Source: Pararhodobacter oceanensis
Lineage (GTDB): Bacteria; Pseudomonadota; Alphaproteobacteria; Rhodobacterales; Rhodobacteraceae
Direction: 5' to 3'
DNA: 64,000 bases
Assembly (NCBI RefSeq): GCF_003076755.1
Contig: NZ_QDKM01000004.1
Coordinates: 124,001 to 188,000 of the forward strand
Shown here: positions 41,912 to 49,826 of the stretch, in pieces
Numbering within the stretch: position 1 is the stretch's first letter
How the letters are laid out: every line of letters starts with the position of its first letter
Made by a program: the position numbers and the translations under genes
Notes under the pieces: model-generated
What the model was told of the DNA's origin: nothing
Seen by the model: the letters and a program-made list of their open reading frames with translations, nothing else
Database searches by the model: none

Positions 41912-42214
41912 ATGGATGCATTCAAGGACCGCCTGTCGCAGCGCGCGCAAGACACCACCCGTCCGGCATTGGCCCATCAGTCGCGGGGCCGCGCGTTGAG
42001 CGAGGCCGAGCAGGCTCTGGCCTCCGCGATGATGGAGATCATGGGCGCGGGCGAGCAGGATTTCGGCAAGCTCGCCGGTGAACTGGCCGCGCGCGGTCTG
42101 GTGGCGCCGGTCTCGGGGCGCAAGGACTGGGATCAGGATTTGCTGGCGCAGGAACTTGCCGCGGTGAACGCCGATCTGGATGCCGCTTATGAAGAGCACG
42201 GCTATGGCGCTTGA
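41912..42214 (+). CDS. Small recombinase-like HTH protein
   Basis: 100 residues. The C-terminal half (ASAMMEIMGAGEQDFGKLAG, then ELAARGLVAPVSGRKDWDQD and LLAQELAAVNADLDAAY) resembles the resolvase-like helix-turn-helix family of short proteins often encoded beside Rieske oxygenases. It is the first gene of the operon, and its stop overlaps the ABC ATPase start. A regulatory or scaffold role is possible; no recombinase catalytic residues are present. Confidence 0.65.
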   Translation: MDAFKDRLSQRAQDTTRPALAHQSRGRALSEAEQALASAMMEIMGAGEQDFGKLAGELAARGLVAPVSGRKDWDQDLLAQELAAVNADLDAAYEEHGYGA

Positions 42215-42974
42215 GTTCCGCAATGTCACCAAGACCTTCGGCGCGCTGGGTCAAAAGGTGGTCACCGCTATTGAGGGCGTTGATTTCAAAGTCAATAAAG
42301 GCGAGTTCGTCTCGGTGGTCGGGCCGTCGGGCTGCGGCAAAAGCACGATCCTGAGCATGACCGCGGGGCTTTATCAGCCCAGCTCGGGCGAGGTGCTGGT
42401 CTCGGGCGAAAAGGTGACCAAGCCAAATCCCCATGTCGGCTTCATGCTGCAAAAAGACCTGCTGCTGCCCTGGCGGACGATCATCAAGAATGTCGAATTC
42501 GGGCTGGAATCGCGCGGCGTCGGCAAGGCCGAGCGGCGGGATCGGGCGATGGCGGAACTCGAGCGCTGTCATCTGGCGGGGTTTGAAAACCAGTATCCCT
42601 ATCAGCTTTCGGGCGGTATGCGGCAACGCGCAGCTTTGGCCCGCACCTTGGCGATTGACCCCGATATCATCCTGCTGGACGAGCCGTTCTCGGCGCTGGA
42701 TGCGCAGACCAAACTGTTGATTCAGAACAGTTTTGCCGAGACCATTCAGGAGGCGGGGATCACCACGCTGTTGATTACCCATGACCTGTCGGAGGCGGTG
42801 ATCATGTCCGACCGCGTGCTGGTGCTGTCGGAGCGTCCGGGCACGGTGATCCGCGAGATGCCGATTGACCTGCCGGACCGCGCGCATCCGCTCAAACGGC
42901 GGCAGATGAGTGAAATCCACCAACATGCGGCGGAAATTTTCGCATTACTCAAGCTCGATCAACGGGCTACTTAA
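42204..42974 (+). CDS. ABC transporter ATPase (taurine/nitrate/sulfonate type)
   Basis: 256 residues. Walker A GPSGCGKST, signature LSGGMRQRAALAR, Walker B IILLDEPFSALD and the His-containing THDLSEA. It belongs to the SsuB/TauB group. The start at 42204 is chosen among three clustered ATGs (42180, 42189, 42204). It pairs with the binding protein and permease that follow. Confidence 0.9.
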   Translation: MALEFRNVTKTFGALGQKVVTAIEGVDFKVNKGEFVSVVGPSGCGKSTILSMTAGLYQPSSGEVLVSGEKVTKPNPHVGFMLQKDLLLPWRTIIKNVEFGLESRGVGKAERRDRAMAELERCHLAGFENQYPYQLSGGMRQRAALARTLAIDPDIILLDEPFSALDAQTKLLIQNSFAETIQEAGITTLLITHDLSEAVIMSDRVLVLSERPGTVIREMPIDLPDRAHPLKRRQMSEIHQHAAEIFALLKLDQRAT

Positions 42975-42992
42975 AACCAAGGGAGAACTATA

Positions 42993-43970
42993 ATGAATAA
43001 GATTATTCTCGGATTTACTGCAGCAATGGGAATAACAATGACGGGCCTGATGGCGCAGGCCCAGACGTCGTTGACTTACCTATTCCCCGGACCGGATTTT
43101 CTGCCCGCTTTTGCTCCGTTTCAGTTAGCATTGGGAAAGGGTTATTACTCGGAAGAAGGTCTGGATGTGACTTTCCGCATAGGTAACGGTGGCGCAGACG
43201 TTGCGACGCAAGTTGCGGTCGGAAATGCAGATTTGGGCGGCGGCATGGGGGACACTTCCATGATCGTGCGCGCCAATGGATTGGAAGTGCGCGGCGTAGC
43301 GGTTCTTGGTGGCCAAGGATTGACGCAGCTTGTTTGGCGCAACGATAGTGGTATTACCTCAATTGAAGAGTTTGCCGGCCACGCAATTGCAGTAGCGGGT
43401 TTTCAGAACACTGAGTTTTACAACCTCCGTGCCGCGTTGGCAGTTTCCGGTGTTAATCCGGATGACGTAGATATTCAATCTCTGGGTTATGGCGGCATTG
43501 TGCAGGGTATGATCGCTGGATCTGTCTCGGGAATGTCGGGTGTTCCGGAGTGGATTGTCGCGATTGAAGACGCAGGGGTCGAATTATCGGTTATGCCGGC
43601 GCGTGATGTATTTCCTGCTCAAGCACAGGCAATTATCGCGTCTGACGCATACATTGCAGAAAACCCTGATGCAGTACGCGGGTTTGTGTCTGCAACCTTG
43701 CGTGCAATCCACGATATCATTGATGATCCACACCAAGCCGCCATTGACTATGTTGGGTTTGTTGATCGCCATGCGGAGAACGTAGATCAGGTAGAGCGCA
43801 TTATGCGCATGTATGCTGAACTGGTGTATCTGCAAGACGGTGATCGTCCAATCGGCGCCTTTGATCAGGCTCAACTGCAAACAGTGCAAGATTTCTATGC
43901 CGAGAACGAAGTGATCAATGCCGTTGTACCTATCGAAGACGTCTATACCAACGACTTCGTGCCTGATTGA
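42993..43970 (+). CDS. ABC substrate-binding protein (NMT1/SsuA-like)
   Basis: 325 residues with a signal peptide (1-23, AQA). The fold begins FAPFQLALGKGYYSEEGLDV, as in nitrate/sulfonate/HMP binding proteins. Codon choice is clearly more AT-rich than in the ATPase gene before it and the oxygenase gene after it, as in the permease at 44129. The ligand is unknown; the operon suggests the oxygenase substrate or a precursor. Confidence 0.88.
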   Translation: MNKIILGFTAAMGITMTGLMAQAQTSLTYLFPGPDFLPAFAPFQLALGKGYYSEEGLDVTFRIGNGGADVATQVAVGNADLGGGMGDTSMIVRANGLEVRGVAVLGGQGLTQLVWRNDSGITSIEEFAGHAIAVAGFQNTEFYNLRAALAVSGVNPDDVDIQSLGYGGIVQGMIAGSVSGMSGVPEWIVAIEDAGVELSVMPARDVFPAQAQAIIASDAYIAENPDAVRGFVSATLRAIHDIIDDPHQAAIDYVGFVDRHAENVDQVERIMRMYAELVYLQDGDRPIGAFDQAQLQTVQDFYAENEVINAVVPIEDVYTNDFVPD

Positions 43971-44002
43971 TTGCACTATAGGTAAGGCCTTTCAGGAATT
44001 TT

Positions 44003-44042
44003 CTCGTCGCTGTTCAATAAACAGAACTCGGATAGCGGCGAG
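44003..44042 (+). other. Intercistronic stem-loop, binding protein to permease
   Basis: CTCGTCGCT (44003-44011) pairs with AGCGGCGAG (44034-44042), one GU pair, with an inner CTGTT/AACAG pair. It lies in the 158 bp gap between the two genes. Confidence 0.5.
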
Positions 44043-44128
44043 TATCCACCTGAATATTTAGCTTCCGAGCAGAGACATATTGCGCGGCGTCAATTGGACG
44101 ATTCGAAGCGCTCAATACGAGGTATCCG

Positions 44129-44896
44129 ATGACATCTTCACGCAACACAACGCTTGTCGGCTTTTTGATTTTGGGTTTGCTTTTGCTAGTTTGGGAGTTT
44201 CTGCCTCCTGCCCTCGGGGTGCCGAAATTCATCATTCCTACTGTCTCTGATATGGTTCTAGAGTTGGGCCGGATGTATCGTCGCGAGCATGTTATTGCCA
44301 ACACTCTATCCACGGCGTGGTTTACGCTGTTGGGGTTCTTGATTGGATCGACATTGGGTGCGACGATCGGTTATCTTCTTGGTTTTTCGCGTTTTTGGGA
44401 GAAGGTTCTCTCGCCGTATATTCTGGCTTTGCAGATCGCACCGAAAGTGGCATTTGCGCCTCTCTTTATAATTTGGTTCGGCTATAACTCGATCCCAAAA
44501 ATGCTGGTCGCAGTTCTGATCGTGTTTTTTCCGGTATTGGTGAATGTATTAGCGGCGATGAAGACTGTGGACCGCGATATGGTCAATCTGGCGCGCGCCT
44601 ATTCAATGAGCCGTTGGCAGATATTCATTAAAGTTGAATTCCCGTCGACACTGCCCAATCTGATGGCTGGCTTGCGCATTGCCACAACTTTGGCTGTTAT
44701 TGGTGTCGTAGTAGGGGAAATGGTCGGCGGTAATACTGGCCTCGGGTTCTTAATTACCTACGGTGGCGGTCAGGCGAATGCAGCGATGGTGTTTAATTCG
44801 ATCGTGCTGCTGACGCTTATCGGAATTCTATTATACACCGTATTGGCTGCACTCGAAGAGCGGCTGCTGCATTATATCCCGAAAAAAGACCACTGA
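44129..44896 (+). CDS. ABC transporter permease (taurine/nitrate type)
   Basis: 255 residues with six membrane segments. The EAA loop is in MVNLARAYSMSRWQIFIKVE. It is preceded by an unusual 158 bp gap with a stem-loop. Its AT-rich codon use matches the binding protein gene but not the rest of the operon. Confidence 0.9.
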   Translation: MTSSRNTTLVGFLILGLLLLVWEFLPPALGVPKFIIPTVSDMVLELGRMYRREHVIANTLSTAWFTLLGFLIGSTLGATIGYLLGFSRFWEKVLSPYILALQIAPKVAFAPLFIIWFGYNSIPKMLVAVLIVFFPVLVNVLAAMKTVDRDMVNLARAYSMSRWQIFIKVEFPSTLPNLMAGLRIATTLAVIGVVVGEMVGGNTGLGFLITYGGGQANAAMVFNSIVLLTLIGILLYTVLAALEERLLHYIPKKDH

Positions 44897-44971
44897 TCCC
44901 GAATTAGTTTCAGACAGGGCGCGGCGCAGGCTAGGTCGGCACCGCGCACCCCATCCAAAAGGAGCCAGATC

Positions 44972-46012
44972 ATGACGGCCATCGACAAAAAAGCCCTGAT
45001 CGAAGAGCGGGTGAACTCCGGCCTGTTGGGCCATTGGTATCCGGTCGCGAAATCGGTCGAAGTGAAGACCTCGCGCCCGCATGGCGTCAAGGCCTTGGGC
45101 CAGAAGCTGGTGCTTTGGCGCGGGGCCGATGGATCGCTGAAATGTATCGAGGATTTCTGCCCCCATCGCGGCGCGCCGCTGTCTTTGGGCGAGGTTCACG
45201 AGGGCAATATCGGCTGCCGCTATCACGGTGTGGTGGTCGATGGCGAAGGCGTGGTGGTGCGGGTGCCGGCGATGCCGGAATGCGCGCTGGAAGGCCGCAA
45301 GGCGGTGAAATCCTTTCATGTCACCGAGCATTCGGATGCGGTGTTTGTCTATATCCCCTCGCTCTCACGGCCCGAGCCGCCGGAACTGGTGCTGCCCGAT
45401 GAGTTGACCAGCGACGCGTGGACCGGCTTCCTCTGCACCGCGGTCTGGGAGACCAACTACCGCTATGCGATCGACAATCTCGCCGATCCGATGCACGGCT
45501 GTTATCTGCACTCGGAAAGCTTCACGCTGGCTTACGGATCGAAACAGGATCTGATGCGGCTGGATAAGACCGAGCACGGGTTCCATATCACCCGTGTGGG
45601 GCAGGTGGGTGATAATTTCGACTGGACGGATTTTGTCTTTCACCCCGGCACGATGTTCTGCTTTCTGGACATCCCCTATCCGCCTGCCGCCGGTCCCGGG
45701 GGTAATATGCGGATTGTCGGCTATGCGACGCCGGTGGATGAGACGACCTGCAAGGTGTTCTTCTGGCGGATGCGCAAGGTCGAGGGGCTGGCGCGGGCAT
45801 CGTGGCGGTTCCTCTACCGTGCGGCCTTGGAGAACAACCACTGGAATGTGCTTGAGCAGGACCGGGTGATGCTGGAGGGCATGCCCGATGACGCGCGGCG
45901 ACGCGAGATGCTCTATCAGCATGACATCGGGGTCAGCCGCGTGCGCCAAATCCTCACCCGTGAGGCCAAGCAGCAGATCGAGGCGGAACTGGCGCAGGTG
46001 GCGGCAGAGTGA
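44972..46012 (+). CDS. Rieske non-heme iron oxygenase, alpha subunit
   Basis: 346 residues. The Rieske centre is Cys63-x-His65 (CPHRGAP) and Cys82-x2-His85 (CRYHG). The mononuclear iron site is Asp172, His175, His180 in NLADPMHGCYLH. The size matches the single-component vanillate-demethylase/phthalate-type oxygenases, which hydroxylate or demethylate aromatic or cyclic compounds and need electrons from a reductase. No ferredoxin-reductase of the usual VanB/OphA2 type is present; a flavoprotein reductase and a flavodoxin are encoded downstream. The strong AAGGAG ribosome binding site is at 44961. Confidence 0.92.
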   Translation: MTAIDKKALIEERVNSGLLGHWYPVAKSVEVKTSRPHGVKALGQKLVLWRGADGSLKCIEDFCPHRGAPLSLGEVHEGNIGCRYHGVVVDGEGVVVRVPAMPECALEGRKAVKSFHVTEHSDAVFVYIPSLSRPEPPELVLPDELTSDAWTGFLCTAVWETNYRYAIDNLADPMHGCYLHSESFTLAYGSKQDLMRLDKTEHGFHITRVGQVGDNFDWTDFVFHPGTMFCFLDIPYPPAAGPGGNMRIVGYATPVDETTCKVFFWRMRKVEGLARASWRFLYRAALENNHWNVLEQDRVMLEGMPDDARRREMLYQHDIGVSRVRQILTREAKQQIEAELAQVAAE

Positions 46013-46746
46013 TGCTGGAGGGGCGGCGCATATTGGTGACCGGCGCGGCGCGCGGTTTGGGCCGCGCGATTGCCGAGGCCTGCGCGGCGCAGGGCGCGCA
46101 GCTGGTGCTGGCGGATATCGACAGCGCAGGCGTGCAAGCCACTGCCGAGGCTTTGGGCGCGCGGGCCGAGACGGTTGATCTGGGTGATCCTGATAGCATT
46201 GAGGCTTTGGGCGAGGCGTTGGGCGAGGCCGGTGCGTTACACGGGTTGATCAACTGCGCGGCACTGGCGACGAATGTCGGCGGCATGGGGTTCGAGGATA
46301 TCGAGCTGGAGTTGTGGGACCGCGTGCAGCGGATCAATGTGCGCGGCACTTGGTTGATGACGCGGGCCTGCGCGCCGCTGCTGCGCGCCAGCGGCTCGGG
46401 GCGGGTGGTCAATGTGGCCTCGGACACCGCGCTTTGGGGCGCGCCGAAGCTGCTGTCCTATACCGCCTCCAAGGGCGCGGTGATGGCGATGACCCGGAGT
46501 TTGGCGCGCGAATTGGGCCCGGACCGTGTTGGCGTCACCTGTATCGCGCCGGGGATTTTGACCACCGAAAGCACCGAATATGTTCCCGAAGCGCGACACC
46601 GGCTTTATCAGGACGGCAGCGCCGTGGGTGGGCCGCAATCGGCCGAGGATGTGGCGGGAACGGCGGCGTTTCTGGTCTCGGAGGCGGCCTTGACGCTGAC
46701 CGGACAGGTGTTGCCGGTCAACAATGGCTATGTGTTTGTGACATGA
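46012..46746 (+). CDS. Short-chain dehydrogenase/reductase
   Basis: 244 residues. The Rossmann motif is TGAARGLG (10-17) and the catalytic set is Ser137, Tyr150, Lys154 (SYTASKGA). Asp36 after the second strand (LADID) suggests NAD+. It starts on the base where the oxygenase stop ends and overlaps the hydrolase by 4 bp. It probably oxidises the alcohol or dihydrodiol product of the oxygenase. Confidence 0.9.
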   Translation: MLEGRRILVTGAARGLGRAIAEACAAQGAQLVLADIDSAGVQATAEALGARAETVDLGDPDSIEALGEALGEAGALHGLINCAALATNVGGMGFEDIELELWDRVQRINVRGTWLMTRACAPLLRASGSGRVVNVASDTALWGAPKLLSYTASKGAVMAMTRSLARELGPDRVGVTCIAPGILTTESTEYVPEARHRLYQDGSAVGGPQSAEDVAGTAAFLVSEAALTLTGQVLPVNNGYVFVT

Positions 46747-47588
46747 GCGGGCGCGATCATATCACCGAGGGGATCGGCTGGCGTGAGCATGCGGGCGATG
46801 GGCCGGTGCTCATGGCGCTGCACGGGATCGGCTCGGAGGCGCGGGCGTTTGATGCGCTGGCCGCGCATTTGCCGGGCTGGCGGGTGATCGCTTGGGAGGC
46901 GCCGGGGTATGGGCCCTCGACACCTTTGGATAAGGCATGGCCGGTGGCGGCTGATTACGCGGCGGCGGCGCTGCGGTTGATGGATGCGCTGGAATTGGAG
47001 CGCGTGCATCTTCTCGGGCATTCGCTGGGCACATTGATTGGCGCGGCGCTGGCCCGCGCGCATCCCGAGCGGCTGGACAGCCTGACTTTGGCGTCTTGTG
47101 CGCAGGGCGGCGGGGCTGCGGCGGGGGGCGTTTTGCCTGATGCGCAGGCGGCGCGACTTGAGGATCTGGAACGGCAGGGCGCCGAGGCTTTCGCCGCCAG
47201 CCGCGCCGCGCGGTTGATCTATGCGCCCGAAGACAACGCCGATCTGGTGGCGAATGTCGCGCAGGGCATGGGCAAGGTGAAAATGCCCGGTTACGGGCAG
47301 GCGGTGCGAATGCTCGCCTCGGGCGATCTGGCGGCGGATTGCGCGGCGCTGACCGTGCCGACTTCGGTGATCGTCGGTGCCGAGGATGTGGTGACGCCGC
47401 CGGTGCAATCCTTTCGCGCCCATGAGGCGCTGCCGGTGGCGGTGCGCGGCGCGCTTAGTCTTGTGCCCGCGACCGGCCATGCGCTGCACCAACAGGCGCC
47501 ACAGGCTTTGGCGGCGGCGATCTTGCGGCTGCAGGGCGAGCGGACATTATCCGCGCGGTGGGCCAGTGACCAAGGAGGAGAGCTATGA
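46743..47588 (+). CDS. Alpha/beta hydrolase
   Basis: 281 residues. The nucleophile elbow GHSLG places Ser94; Asp lies in GAEDVVTPP and His in TGHALHQ. The oxyanion region is HGIGSEAR. It is related to meta-cleavage-product hydrolases and esterases. The start is ATG 46743, overlapping the SDR stop by 4 bp; it overlaps the reductase gene by 4 bp. Confidence 0.88.
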   Translation: MSGRDHITEGIGWREHAGDGPVLMALHGIGSEARAFDALAAHLPGWRVIAWEAPGYGPSTPLDKAWPVAADYAAAALRLMDALELERVHLLGHSLGTLIGAALARAHPERLDSLTLASCAQGGGAAAGGVLPDAQAARLEDLERQGAEAFAASRAARLIYAPEDNADLVANVAQGMGKVKMPGYGQAVRMLASGDLAADCAALTVPTSVIVGAEDVVTPPVQSFRAHEALPVAVRGALSLVPATGHALHQQAPQALAAAILRLQGERTLSARWASDQGGEL

Positions 47589-48781
47589 CCAGCATTGCGA
47601 TTGTCGGCGCCGGTCCCTCGGGCTGCTATACCGCGCAGGCGCTGGCCAAGGCGCTGCCCGATGCGCGGATTGATCTGATCGACCGGCTGCCGGTGCCTTA
47701 CGGGCTGATCCGCTATGGTGTGGCGCCCGATCATCAGGGCACGAAAGCGGTGATCCGGCAGTTCGAGCGGCTGTTCACCCGCAATGATGTGGCGTTTTTC
47801 GGCAATGTCACGCTGGGCGCGGATCTGACGCTGGAGGACCTGCGCGCGAGCCATGAAGCGGTGGTTCTGGCGACCGGATTGCACACGGACCGGCGGCTGG
47901 GGATTGCCGGTGAGGATCTGCCGGGGGTGATCGGCTCGGGCGTGGTGACGCGGGGCTGGAACGATTATCCCGACGCTGAGCGCCCGCAGATCGGACCGCG
48001 GGTGGTGATTGTGGGCAATGGCAATGTGGCGGTGGACCTGCTGCGGATCTTGGCGAAAGCACCTGCGGAATTCGACGGCTCGGACTTTGCGCCCGAGAGT
48101 GGCGCGGCGCTGATGGCGGCTGGCGTGACGCGGATTGATGTGGTCGGGCGCTCTGGCGCGGGGATGGCGAAATTCGATCCGGTGATGCTGCGCGAGTTGG
48201 GGCGGTTGGCGCAGGCGAGCTTGCATGTGCATGGCGCGACCGGTGAGGGCAAGGTGATCGAAGCCCTGCAGGCGATTGACGTCCATAGGCCGGAAGGGGC
48301 CACGCGCGAGGTGCATTTTCATTTCGGCTGGACGCCCGAGGACATCGAGGGCAGGGCGTGCGTTGAGGCCGTGCGGTTTCGTGCCAGCAATGGTGAGGGC
48401 GCGTTGCACCTGCCTTGCGACACCGTGCTCACCGCGATCGGGTTTGACGGCGAGACTGCGCAGGCGGATGGCGACGGGCGGATTGCCGAGGGGCTTTATG
48501 CCACCGGCTGGTATCGGCGTGGGCCGCGCGGCACGATCCCTGAAAACCGCGCCGATGCGCAGGCGGTGGCGGCACGGATTGCCGCCGATCTGGCGCAGGC
48601 GACCAGCGATAAACCCGGCCGTGCGGCACTGACCGCAGGCCTGCCCGAGGCGGTGGGCTATGACGGTTGGCGGCGGATCGACGCCGCCGAATGCGCCGCT
48701 TGCCCGCCGGACCGCGCCCGCCGCAAGATTGCCACACGCGCGGAAATGCTCACCCTTGCCCGCCAGTCAGAGGACAGATGA
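47585..48781 (+). CDS. Adrenodoxin-reductase-like FAD/NADP oxidoreductase
   Basis: 398 residues, FprA/adrenodoxin reductase family. The FAD motif is VGAGPSGCYTA, followed by YGLIRYGVAPDH; the NADP motif is VGNGNVAVDLLRIL; GWYRRGPRGTIPENRADA near the C-terminus is a family signature. Such enzymes pass electrons from NADPH to ferredoxin or flavodoxin. It is coupled by overlap to the flavodoxin gene (48781), so the pair looks like an electron-supply module for the oxygenase. Confidence 0.9.
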   Translation: MTSIAIVGAGPSGCYTAQALAKALPDARIDLIDRLPVPYGLIRYGVAPDHQGTKAVIRQFERLFTRNDVAFFGNVTLGADLTLEDLRASHEAVVLATGLHTDRRLGIAGEDLPGVIGSGVVTRGWNDYPDAERPQIGPRVVIVGNGNVAVDLLRILAKAPAEFDGSDFAPESGAALMAAGVTRIDVVGRSGAGMAKFDPVMLRELGRLAQASLHVHGATGEGKVIEALQAIDVHRPEGATREVHFHFGWTPEDIEGRACVEAVRFRASNGEGALHLPCDTVLTAIGFDGETAQADGDGRIAEGLYATGWYRRGPRGTIPENRADAQAVAARIAADLAQATSDKPGRAALTAGLPEAVGYDGWRRIDAAECAACPPDRARRKIATRAEMLTLARQSEDR

Positions 48782-49227
48782 TGCAGATACATATTCTTTA
48801 CGGCACCGAAACCGGCAATGCCGAAATGCTCGCCGAGGACATCTCGGACCACCTGTCGGAGCATGCGCCCGAGGTGACCAATCTTGAGGATTTCGACCCC
48901 GCTGATTTCGACACGGGCACGTTTTATCTTGTGGTAACATCGACTTACGGCGACGGCGAATTGCCCGCCTCGGCGCAGCCCTTTGCCGAGAAAATGGCGT
49001 CGCAGGCGCCCGACCTGAGCGGCATCCGCTTTGCGGTGTTTGGCATGGGCGACAGCGAATATCCCGAGACCTTCAATTTCGGCGGCAAGCGGTTGGAAGA
49101 GATGCTGACCGGTGCGGGCGCGGAACTGGTCGGTGAGCGGGTGACGCATGACGCCTCGGGCAGCGATATGGCCGATGATCTGGCGCTGCCCTGGGTAGAT
49201 GCGCTGCTCGCCGAAGGGGTCGCGTGA
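48781..49227 (+). CDS. Short-chain flavodoxin (MioC-like)
   Basis: 148 residues. The phosphate loop YGTETGNAEMLA binds FMN phosphate; TSTYGDGELP and FGMGDSEYPETFN are the two FMN-contacting loops. It resembles MioC and the flavodoxin domain of sulfite reductase. An ATG at 48778 is also possible. Expected role: electron carrier between the FprA-like reductase and the Rieske oxygenase. Confidence 0.88.
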   Translation: MQIHILYGTETGNAEMLAEDISDHLSEHAPEVTNLEDFDPADFDTGTFYLVVTSTYGDGELPASAQPFAEKMASQAPDLSGIRFAVFGMGDSEYPETFNFGGKRLEEMLTGAGAELVGERVTHDASGSDMADDLALPWVDALLAEGVA

Positions 49228-49826
49228 TGGACGCCGCCGCGGTCCGCCGCGCGCTCTCGGCGCCGTGGAAACATGGCGAGGCGGTGGACCTGCGCGGCAT
49301 CCATCTGCGCGAGCGGCTCGATCTCTCGGGGTTGGCGCTCTGCGGGGTGGATTTCTCGGGCGCGGTCTTCGAGGCGGGGCTCGACGCACGCTATGCGCGG
49401 TTTGACGGGCTGGCGTGGTTCAAGGACGTGCGGTTTTGCGCCGACGCCACATTTGCGGGCGCCAGTTTCCTCAATGACGCGCGGTTTGATGCGGCGGCGT
49501 TCAAGGCACAGGCCGGGTTCTCGGGCGCCGAATTTCGCGGTGTCGCCGGGTTTCGCCGCGCGCGGTTTGGCGGTGCGGCGGCGTTTGACAATGTGACCTG
49601 CTATGGCAATGCCGATTTCGCCGATGCGCAGTTTGACGGCGCCGCGAGTTTCCACGGGGCGGAATTTCTGGGCGGGTTTTGGGGCGCCGATACGATGCTG
49701 CCCGCGGGGGCGGATTTTGACGAGACGCAGGTGCATGGCCGCCTCTGGCTGCGCGGCGCGCGGCGGGGGAATATCGCCTTGGCGGAAAAGGATTTCAGCC
49801 TAGTGTTTGGCTATACATGGGCCTGA
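49227..49826 (+). CDS. Pentapeptide-repeat protein
   Basis: 199 residues with A(D/N)LxF-type repeats from about residue 25 to 165 (for example LDLSGLALCGVDFSGAVF, ADATFAGASFLNDARFDAA, ADFADAQFDGAASFHGAEF in shorter pieces). It should fold as a right-handed quadrilateral beta helix. It is the last gene of the operon, and its start overlaps the flavodoxin stop. Its role is unknown; in other systems such proteins mimic DNA or bind large enzymes. Confidence 0.85.
   Translation: MDAAAVRRALSAPWKHGEAVDLRGIHLRERLDLSGLALCGVDFSGAVFEAGLDARYARFDGLAWFKDVRFCADATFAGASFLNDARFDAAAFKAQAGFSGAEFRGVAGFRRARFGGAAAFDNVTCYGNADFADAQFDGAASFHGAEFLGGFWGADTMLPAGADFDETQVHGRLWLRGARRGNIALAEKDFSLVFGYTWA

Follow-up and report, generated by a model that had tools for sequence, protein, structure and literature searches.

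The 64,000-nucleotide stretch of Pararhodobacter oceanensis DNA analysed here (the window; assembly GCF_003076755.1, contig NZ_QDKM01000004.1, positions 124,001 to 188,000) carries ten plus strand genes at 41912-49826 (Table 1), among them those for a Rieske non-heme iron oxygenase (RO), an FprA-like reductase and a short flavodoxin (Fld). The initial annotation placed these three in one operon with its own importer, short-chain dehydrogenase/reductase (SDR) and hydrolase, and saw no Rieske-type ferredoxin or VanB-like reductase in it. Open reading frames, Pfam and NCBIfam located every gene where it had been drawn, and Pfam found neither a Rieske ferredoxin nor a Fer2/VanB-type reductase in the ten proteins; their domain content also holds no P450. 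Overlaps of 4 bases were observed between RO and SDR, SDR and hydrolase, hydrolase and FprA, FprA and Fld, and Fld and a pentapeptide-repeat gene. Because each pair overlaps in this way, the six genes from RO to pentapeptide probably form one translationally coupled unit, and the operon is presumably co-transcribed. The whole is best explained, in our view with a probability of roughly three in four, as a three-component RO in which a flavodoxin would take the place of the ferredoxin as electron carrier.

The RO contains a Rieske domain (PF00355, 81.3 bits) and a VanA_C domain (PF19112, 54.9 bits; cut-off 23.5), with the CxH-x16-CxxH Rieske motif and the 2-His-1-carboxylate catalytic domain of VanA-type enzymes. 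Residues C63, H65, C82 and H85, which we take to be the Rieske ligands, and D172, H175, H180 and D297, presumably the catalytic residues, were invariant in 47 sequences. An AlphaFold model of the RO reached a pLDDT of 80.8 and a pTM of 0.84, with residues 176-191 beside the active site below 50. The VanA_C domain is shared with the VanAB-type two-component ROs, but these use a VanB-type FMN/Fer2 reductase, whereas the window operon has two separate flavoproteins. Three-component ROs of classes IIA, IIB and III rely on a dedicated [2Fe-2S] ferredoxin as carrier; here the gene encoded with the oxygenase in that place is a flavodoxin.

Among solved structures, the reductase is nearest to 1lqt, an FprA (3.2e-45), and to 1cjc, an adrenodoxin reductase (6.1e-45). 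Its residues 4-391 align with residues 6-453 of 1lqt, and the GxGxxG FAD site and a GVAPDH stretch are present, as in the FprA/adrenodoxin reductase family. Residues 188-190 read GRS, versus GRR at the 2'-phosphate site of FprA, where R199/R200 are presumably the arginine pair that binds the 2'-phosphate of NADPH. The second arginine of the GRRG motif was replaced in all 50 RO-paired reductases, the window included (Ser in 47, Gly in 2 and Ala in 1), and one of these three residues also replaces it in 8/8 flavodoxin-paired reductases from plasmids. The pair was kept in 11/11 comparison FprAs (nine without Fld beside them and two from box operons). Because the arginine pair is broken, NADPH, named as the donor in the initial annotation, is not assured, and the donor is therefore written NAD(P)H; from GRS, a relaxed nucleotide choice or one for NADH would be expected.

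The flavodoxin, again among solved structures, is nearest to cindoxin (4oxx, 2e-24) and then to MioC (2hna, 1.6e-17). Assignment as MioC itself was rejected, the NCBIfam model NF006531 scoring 104.2 bits against a cut-off of 158; hence we call it MioC-like. In the FMN-site stretches TETGNAE, STYGDGxLPASA and FGxGDSEY, most residues are kept in at least 80 % of 49 rows.

The RO was searched for in 149 genomes of the family (7 with a match), 385 genomes of the class (15 with a match), plasmids (26 records) and the genome contigs of 84,980 species, where peptide patterns gave 97 relatives and 80 loci were kept. Sixty of the 80 loci extend for 3.5 kb or more before the RO and for 9 kb or more behind it, and 20 were dropped for short flanks. 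When the same gene set was looked for in these other genomes, FprA and Fld were both present in 35/35 loci with an RO score of at least 600 bits, and in 38 of all 60 loci. In an RO group of about 60 % identity (L100, L102, L103, L105 and G092) the pair was found just past the 10 kb flank, behind an aldehyde dehydrogenase (ALDH) and an SDR. FprA adjoins Fld in all 49 distinct pairs, window included, counting only cases where both passed thresholds on one strand.

Co-occurrence at the genome level agrees with this linkage. FprA homologues at E<=1e-30 were found in six of the 149 family genomes, five of which (55-100 % identical to the window protein; that of G119 is a fragment at a contig end) belong to the seven genomes with the RO. 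The sixth, G087 (44 %), lacks an RO match, and its FprA is not accompanied by an Fld match. A close FprA is thus present in 5/7 genomes with the RO versus 0/142 without it (Fisher 3.7e-8), or 1/142 if G087 is counted; G079 and G142 have the RO without FprA. FprA-type proteins are common in the class (70/385 genomes at E<=1e-60, with 37-52 % identity apart from the window's own), so only a close, Fld-paired FprA is informative. The FprA search covered 31 of 32 RO-related genome entries (L108 lay outside it), and 13 were positive, ten at 48 % identity or more and three more distant (G149, G227 and G447; 40-43 %). Among 29 entries tested for Fld, all ten with an FprA of at least 48 % have an Fld of at least 50 % beside it; in G149 and G227 the Fld matches lie on other contigs, and G447 has none. 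From these comparisons, FprA and Fld look like dedicated redox partners of the RO, in the position that a ferredoxin chain has in sister clusters; the electron chain proposed in the initial annotation is thus partly supported, with NAD(P)H in place of NADPH.

A generic housekeeping FprA/flavodoxin pair was considered and rejected. The genome of P. oceanensis encodes a single FprA of full length (two further matches cover it in part, with 31-33 % identity) and one strong flavodoxin, the window Fld scoring 111.8 bits with Flavodoxin_1 and the other two matches 30.8 and 27.8 bits. Furthermore, distant FprAs had no Fld match beside them in 12/12 stretches (L180-L183, L232-L239); nine of the twelve were put to the motif test and kept the arginine pair, while L183, L237 and L238 were outside both this test and the FprA tree.

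In all 35 close loci the cluster also holds an extradiol dioxygenase (VOC), a second SDR (SDR2), a thiamine diphosphate (TPP) enzyme, an aspartate dehydrogenase (AspDH) and an ALDH. In the window genome these five are not between hydrolase and FprA; they lie on another contig, at about C3:456.5-463 kb, together with a cupin and with a flavin monooxygenase and an IclR regulator nearby. The best-scoring relatives of the C3 copies are in clusters of other RO subgroups, and for TPP and VOC the loci close to the window rank close behind. Consequently, the operon as a complete path for one imported compound, as first suggested, was given up, with ring cleavage and lower pathway encoded at C3; the idea that the pair travels with VOC rather than with the RO was also rejected, as the VOC of this genome is elsewhere and FprA/Fld stayed with the RO. 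The substrate is probably aromatic, because RO, SDR and extradiol dioxygenase occur together and because of the IclR regulator at L110, which is nearest to the PcaR/PobR family model, below its cut-off. Among the papers listed in the literature search, none was seen to assign a substrate to this catabolic cluster. The genes A1S_0956-0958 (AspDH, ALDH and acetolactate synthase), modestly induced according to the excerpted text of an Acinetobacter mucin paper (PMC5757984), may belong to it.

Sister clusters with another electron chain were found in Acinetobacter (L114), Klebsiella (L115) and Caballeronia (L112). Their RO, 43-50 % identical to that of the window, sits in the same catabolic cluster with HTH_62, SDR, VOC, hydrolase, SDR2, AspDH and ALDH in common; the TPP enzyme was seen in L112 and, cut, in L114. 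In place of Fld and FprA, however, these clusters have a Rieske ferredoxin of 101-107 residues just before HTH_62 and the RO, and a glutathione reductase (GR)-type FAD reductase downstream (cut by the end of the stretch in L112). The Acinetobacter ferredoxin is nearest to AndAb/HcaC, and the reductase, which carries Reductase_C, to HcaD/AndAa (NCBIfam, all below cut-off). L157 and L161 also have a Rieske ferredoxin and a GR-type reductase.

When a tree of 105 RO rows was drawn, an 84-row branch with the window (SH-aLRT 99) stood apart from a 16-row branch with all five ferredoxin-type rows (98). Four changes explain the presence or absence of FprA and Fld over 69 labelled rows; labels were set by hand, and the 36 rows labelled 'undetermined' are outside this count. 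L031 was labelled as having the pair though its Fld falls past the contig end, L101 makes up two rows and the genome of L083 is small (1.4 Mb). The tree was built by a quick method without bootstrap, gave a long-branch warning and was rooted at the midpoint. Because sister ROs in the same catabolic cluster have a Rieske ferredoxin and a GR-type reductase, the redox module appears to have been swapped, and the simplest account would be that the alphaproteobacterial RO branch underwent a single replacement near its base, followed by losses.

Similar pairs were found with other oxygenases. Plasmid matches were taken from points spread over the ranking, and the following holds among the matches listed. 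In Rhodococcus DN22, a 47 % identical reductase directly precedes a flavodoxin-P450 fusion, and R. erythropolis R138 has the same layout; in K. grimontii and E. hormaechei the order is FprA-Fld-P450; FprA-Fld also occurs in R. oxybenzonivorans and in Sinorhizobium chiapasense, where neither a P450 nor an RO is annotated within about 5 kb of it. According to the parts of two papers at hand, the DN22 protein is XplB, the adrenodoxin reductase-like partner of XplA (PMC10820124; PMC8081977), known from Rhodococcus degrading hexahydro-1,3,5-trinitro-1,3,5-triazine (RDX). The flavodoxin of that system is fused to the P450, whereas that of the window is free and its proposed acceptor is a Rieske cluster. 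A separate FMN flavodoxin is found in the P450cin system (CinB FAD reductase, CinC cindoxin), whose chain is given in the excerpted account as NADPH to FAD to FMN flavodoxin to oxygenase (PMC9687028); in vitro assays of XplB are listed with NADH in the review text (PMC8081977). The window operon resembles a cindoxin-type cassette in its adjacent reductase and flavodoxin tied to one oxygenase, but its terminal enzyme is a Rieske non-heme iron oxygenase in place of a P450; the CinB sequence was outside the comparison. The electron route, termed unusual in the initial annotation, is fairly called so for a Rieske oxygenase, and the FAD-to-FMN pair as such is known from P450cin and XplB/XplA.

In Palleronia and Pseudooceanicola plasmids, FprA-Fld is divergent from a LigXa_C-type RO that lacks Rieske ligands and is accompanied by a separate Rieske protein of 132-154 residues (split Rieske oxygenase at L196:4377-6098 and L198:5074-6747). 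In G424 and G501 (L230:5490-9791, L231:5773-10200), FprA is found in a box-like operon with ECH_1 genes, and Fld is about 4 kb away on the other strand. FprA of G424 is behind a BoxB-like gene (656 bits to benzoyl-CoA oxygenase B; this comparison covers G424/L230 only), and FprA and Fld of these two genomes are a possible flavin supply for benzoyl-CoA epoxidase.

We assign the pair to the RO because overlaps run from RO to Fld, the pair is present in all 35 close loci, it co-occurs with the RO among genomes and a ferredoxin chain stands in its place in the sister clusters; because VOC, TPP, AspDH and ALDH of this genome lie elsewhere and FprA/Fld remain with the RO; and because similar pairs flank P450s and adjoin an unrelated split Rieske oxygenase. 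In the proposed mechanism, the FprA-like flavoprotein would oxidise NAD(P)H by two electrons and hand electrons one at a time to the cindoxin-like flavodoxin at its FMN, which in its reduced form would pass them to the Rieske [2Fe-2S] cluster of the RO and from there to the mononuclear iron in the adjacent subunit. The RO would hydroxylate an imported, probably aromatic substrate and the SDR would oxidise the product, with ring cleavage and the lower pathway (VOC, SDR2, TPP enzyme, AspDH and ALDH) supplied from the second genome locus. As for its origin, the flavin pair would have taken the place of a Rieske ferredoxin and a GR-type reductase near the base of the alphaproteobacterial RO branch, and several sub-lineages would have lost it.

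Several observations weigh against this assignment. No pair is present in the loci of ROs with 67-71 % identity (L074-L082, L087, L089, L091, L094, L095) and 63-66 % identity (L083-L086, L090, L099, L101), some of which are cut short; L092 (67 %) has it. Genome-wide, the pair was not found in the 15 distinct pairless-RO genomes tested (16 entries with an alpha-type RO and no FprA, G079 and G534 sharing one 68,274-base contig and counted as one), where the only Fld-like match was a weak one of 37 % inside a fused 695-residue frame in G545. Because ROs that are 63-71 % identical occur without the pair, an RO of this type does not absolutely need it. The own genome encodes ferredoxin-size Rieske proteins and 17 Fer2 matches. 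For chlorophyllide a oxygenase, a different RO, no product could be detected when E. coli flavodoxin/flavodoxin reductase was the donor, whereas VanB, DdmB/DdmA or TsaB yielded one of the correct mass, as far as the excerpted report goes (PMC9615114). Finally, unlinked and box-linked FprAs are on the Rieske-linked side of the FprA tree, joined to L092 and L107 (84), so that the RO-linked reductases are not, as far as shown, one exclusive lineage.

One rival is a supply in trans, in which a Rieske or plant-type ferredoxin would serve the RO and Fld/FprA would have another task, for example protection from reactive oxygen species released by the uncoupled oxygenase, or iron-sulphur cluster repair. 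The flavodoxin FldX1 reportedly improves aromatic degradation and counters oxidative stress in Paraburkholderia and, in the excerpted text, is not presented as an RO partner (PMC10983741); the many related ROs without the pair and the ferredoxin-size Rieske and Fer2 proteins of the genome speak in the same direction. However, such strict linkage to one oxygenase (adjacency, translational coupling and co-occurrence in 5/7 versus 0-1/142 genomes) is unexpected from a stress role, and a ferredoxin/reductase pair fills the position in otherwise matching sister clusters. We therefore regard supply in trans as unlikely. Around seven other RO-size Rieske proteins of the genome no Fld or FprA match was found; a C-terminal Fer2-motif protein lies at most about 1.1 kb from two of them, a third shares its stretch with a GR-type reductase and a ferredoxin-size Rieske protein, and the motifs revealed none of these near the other four.

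A branched supply, in which Fld/FprA would feed the RO along with further acceptors (VOC or a flavin monooxygenase) without strict specificity, is less probable still. In Phaeobacter J2-8 (L106/L185) a group-3-type RO neighbours an FprA/Fld of group-1 type, suggesting that partners may be interchangeable, but judging from domain content no other protein of the operon would need a one-electron supply. Least probable, if narrowly, is that the pair leaves the RO aside and reactivates the VOC extradiol dioxygenase through reduction of the oxidised iron, in the manner of XylT-type ferredoxins: VOC is in the cluster at every close locus, and that FprA/Fld share a cluster with it in most genomes does count against an RO partner, but the window VOC is outside the operon that keeps FprA/Fld with the RO, the loci of Thioglobus-type clusters (L083-L085, L090) contain VOC but lack FprA/Fld, and the RO would still need a donor.

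The flavodoxin-fed RO thus remains our preferred explanation, and, judged from the conserved gene arrangement, the enzymes of one branch of bacteria, chiefly from sea and soil, appear to have such a flavin-based supply, of a kind familiar from P450 systems. It is more doubtful whether flavodoxin-driven ROs make up a whole unrecognised class, in which the ferredoxin chain gave way to a P450cin/XplB-like cassette that also serves the split Rieske oxygenase. FprA and Fld trees were drawn from 21 chosen RO loci and the window. In the Fld tree, the plasmid rows that are P450-linked or unlinked separate (96) from those linked to Rieske or box genes. The FprA tree sets off three of its four P450-linked rows (96), with XplB just outside the rest. 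Both trees place the split-RO pair within Rieske-linked rows. We hold the class reading lower, as a tentative one, because the FprA tree does not part the Rieske-linked reductases from unlinked FprAs.

The components are known, and the combination was not found in the literature searched: among the open-licence PMC papers listed, no native flavodoxin-RO couple was seen. The available text of a recent Rieske oxygenase review gives the shuttle as a ferredoxin, and the word flavodoxin occurs in it twice, both times in the reference list (PMC12445004). If true, the scheme of RO electron supply would gain a class with a conserved FMN shuttle, and a natural donor without an iron-sulphur carrier would perhaps be useful under iron scarcity and for biocatalysis with partnerless ROs. 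One catabolic cluster with two electron chains in sister clades is also a natural experiment.

Table 1 Genes of the RO operon in the window
Feature	Position	Strand	Basis
HTH_62 small protein (recombinase-like HTH), first gene	41912..42214	+	Pfam PF20552 33.8 bits
ABC importer ATPase, NitT/TauT/SsuB type	42204..42974	+	PF00005 3e-31
Periplasmic substrate-binding protein, NMT1/SsuA-like	42993..43970	+	PF09084 2.4e-37; GC 0.51
ABC importer permease	44129..44896	+	PF00528 2.4e-29; GC 0.49
Rieske non-heme iron oxygenase (RO) alpha subunit, VanA type	44972..46012	+	PF00355, PF19112
SDR oxidoreductase, probable diol dehydrogenase	46009..46746	+	PF13561 6.2e-53
Alpha/beta-hydrolase, PcaD-like	46743..47588	+	PF00561 7.5e-18; PcaD/PcaDC models below cut-off
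FprA/adrenodoxin-reductase-like FAD protein, proposed NAD(P)H:flavodoxin reductase	47585..48781	+	1lqt/1cjc; motif comparison
Short-chain FMN flavodoxin (Fld), cindoxin/MioC-like, proposed one-electron carrier to Rieske cluster	48778..49227	+	PF00258 3.1e-32; 4oxx
Pentapeptide-repeat protein, last gene	49224..49826	+	PF13576 2.8e-20

Two pairless RO loci (L078:12301-16680 and L095:12302-19071) have a sulfatase, a TRAP transporter and a flavin monooxygenase beside the RO, a hint of sulphate-ester substrates in this subgroup; Pfam found no reductase among the 8 and 10 chosen open reading frames around them.

In 59/60 relatives' loci whose flanks are long enough, the HTH_62 gene lies on the RO strand; it immediately precedes the RO in 19, the importer genes mostly lie between the two elsewhere, and it is also found in the Acinetobacter and Klebsiella clusters. 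It has no relative among solved structures and may be a partner of the RO instead of a recombinase. The pentapeptide-repeat gene is on the RO strand in 56/60 loci, including clusters without FprA/Fld.

For the importer ATPase, the start was picked to match the length of the L110 copy, and the NCBIfam relatives shown all score under cut-off. The binding-protein and permease genes differ in composition from the rest of the operon, with third-position GC (GC3) of 0.49 and 0.56, respectively, and overall GC below the 0.60-0.69 of the other operon genes. As their copies in 11 sampled relatives have a GC of 0.60-0.70, the two genes were possibly replaced in place from a low-GC donor.

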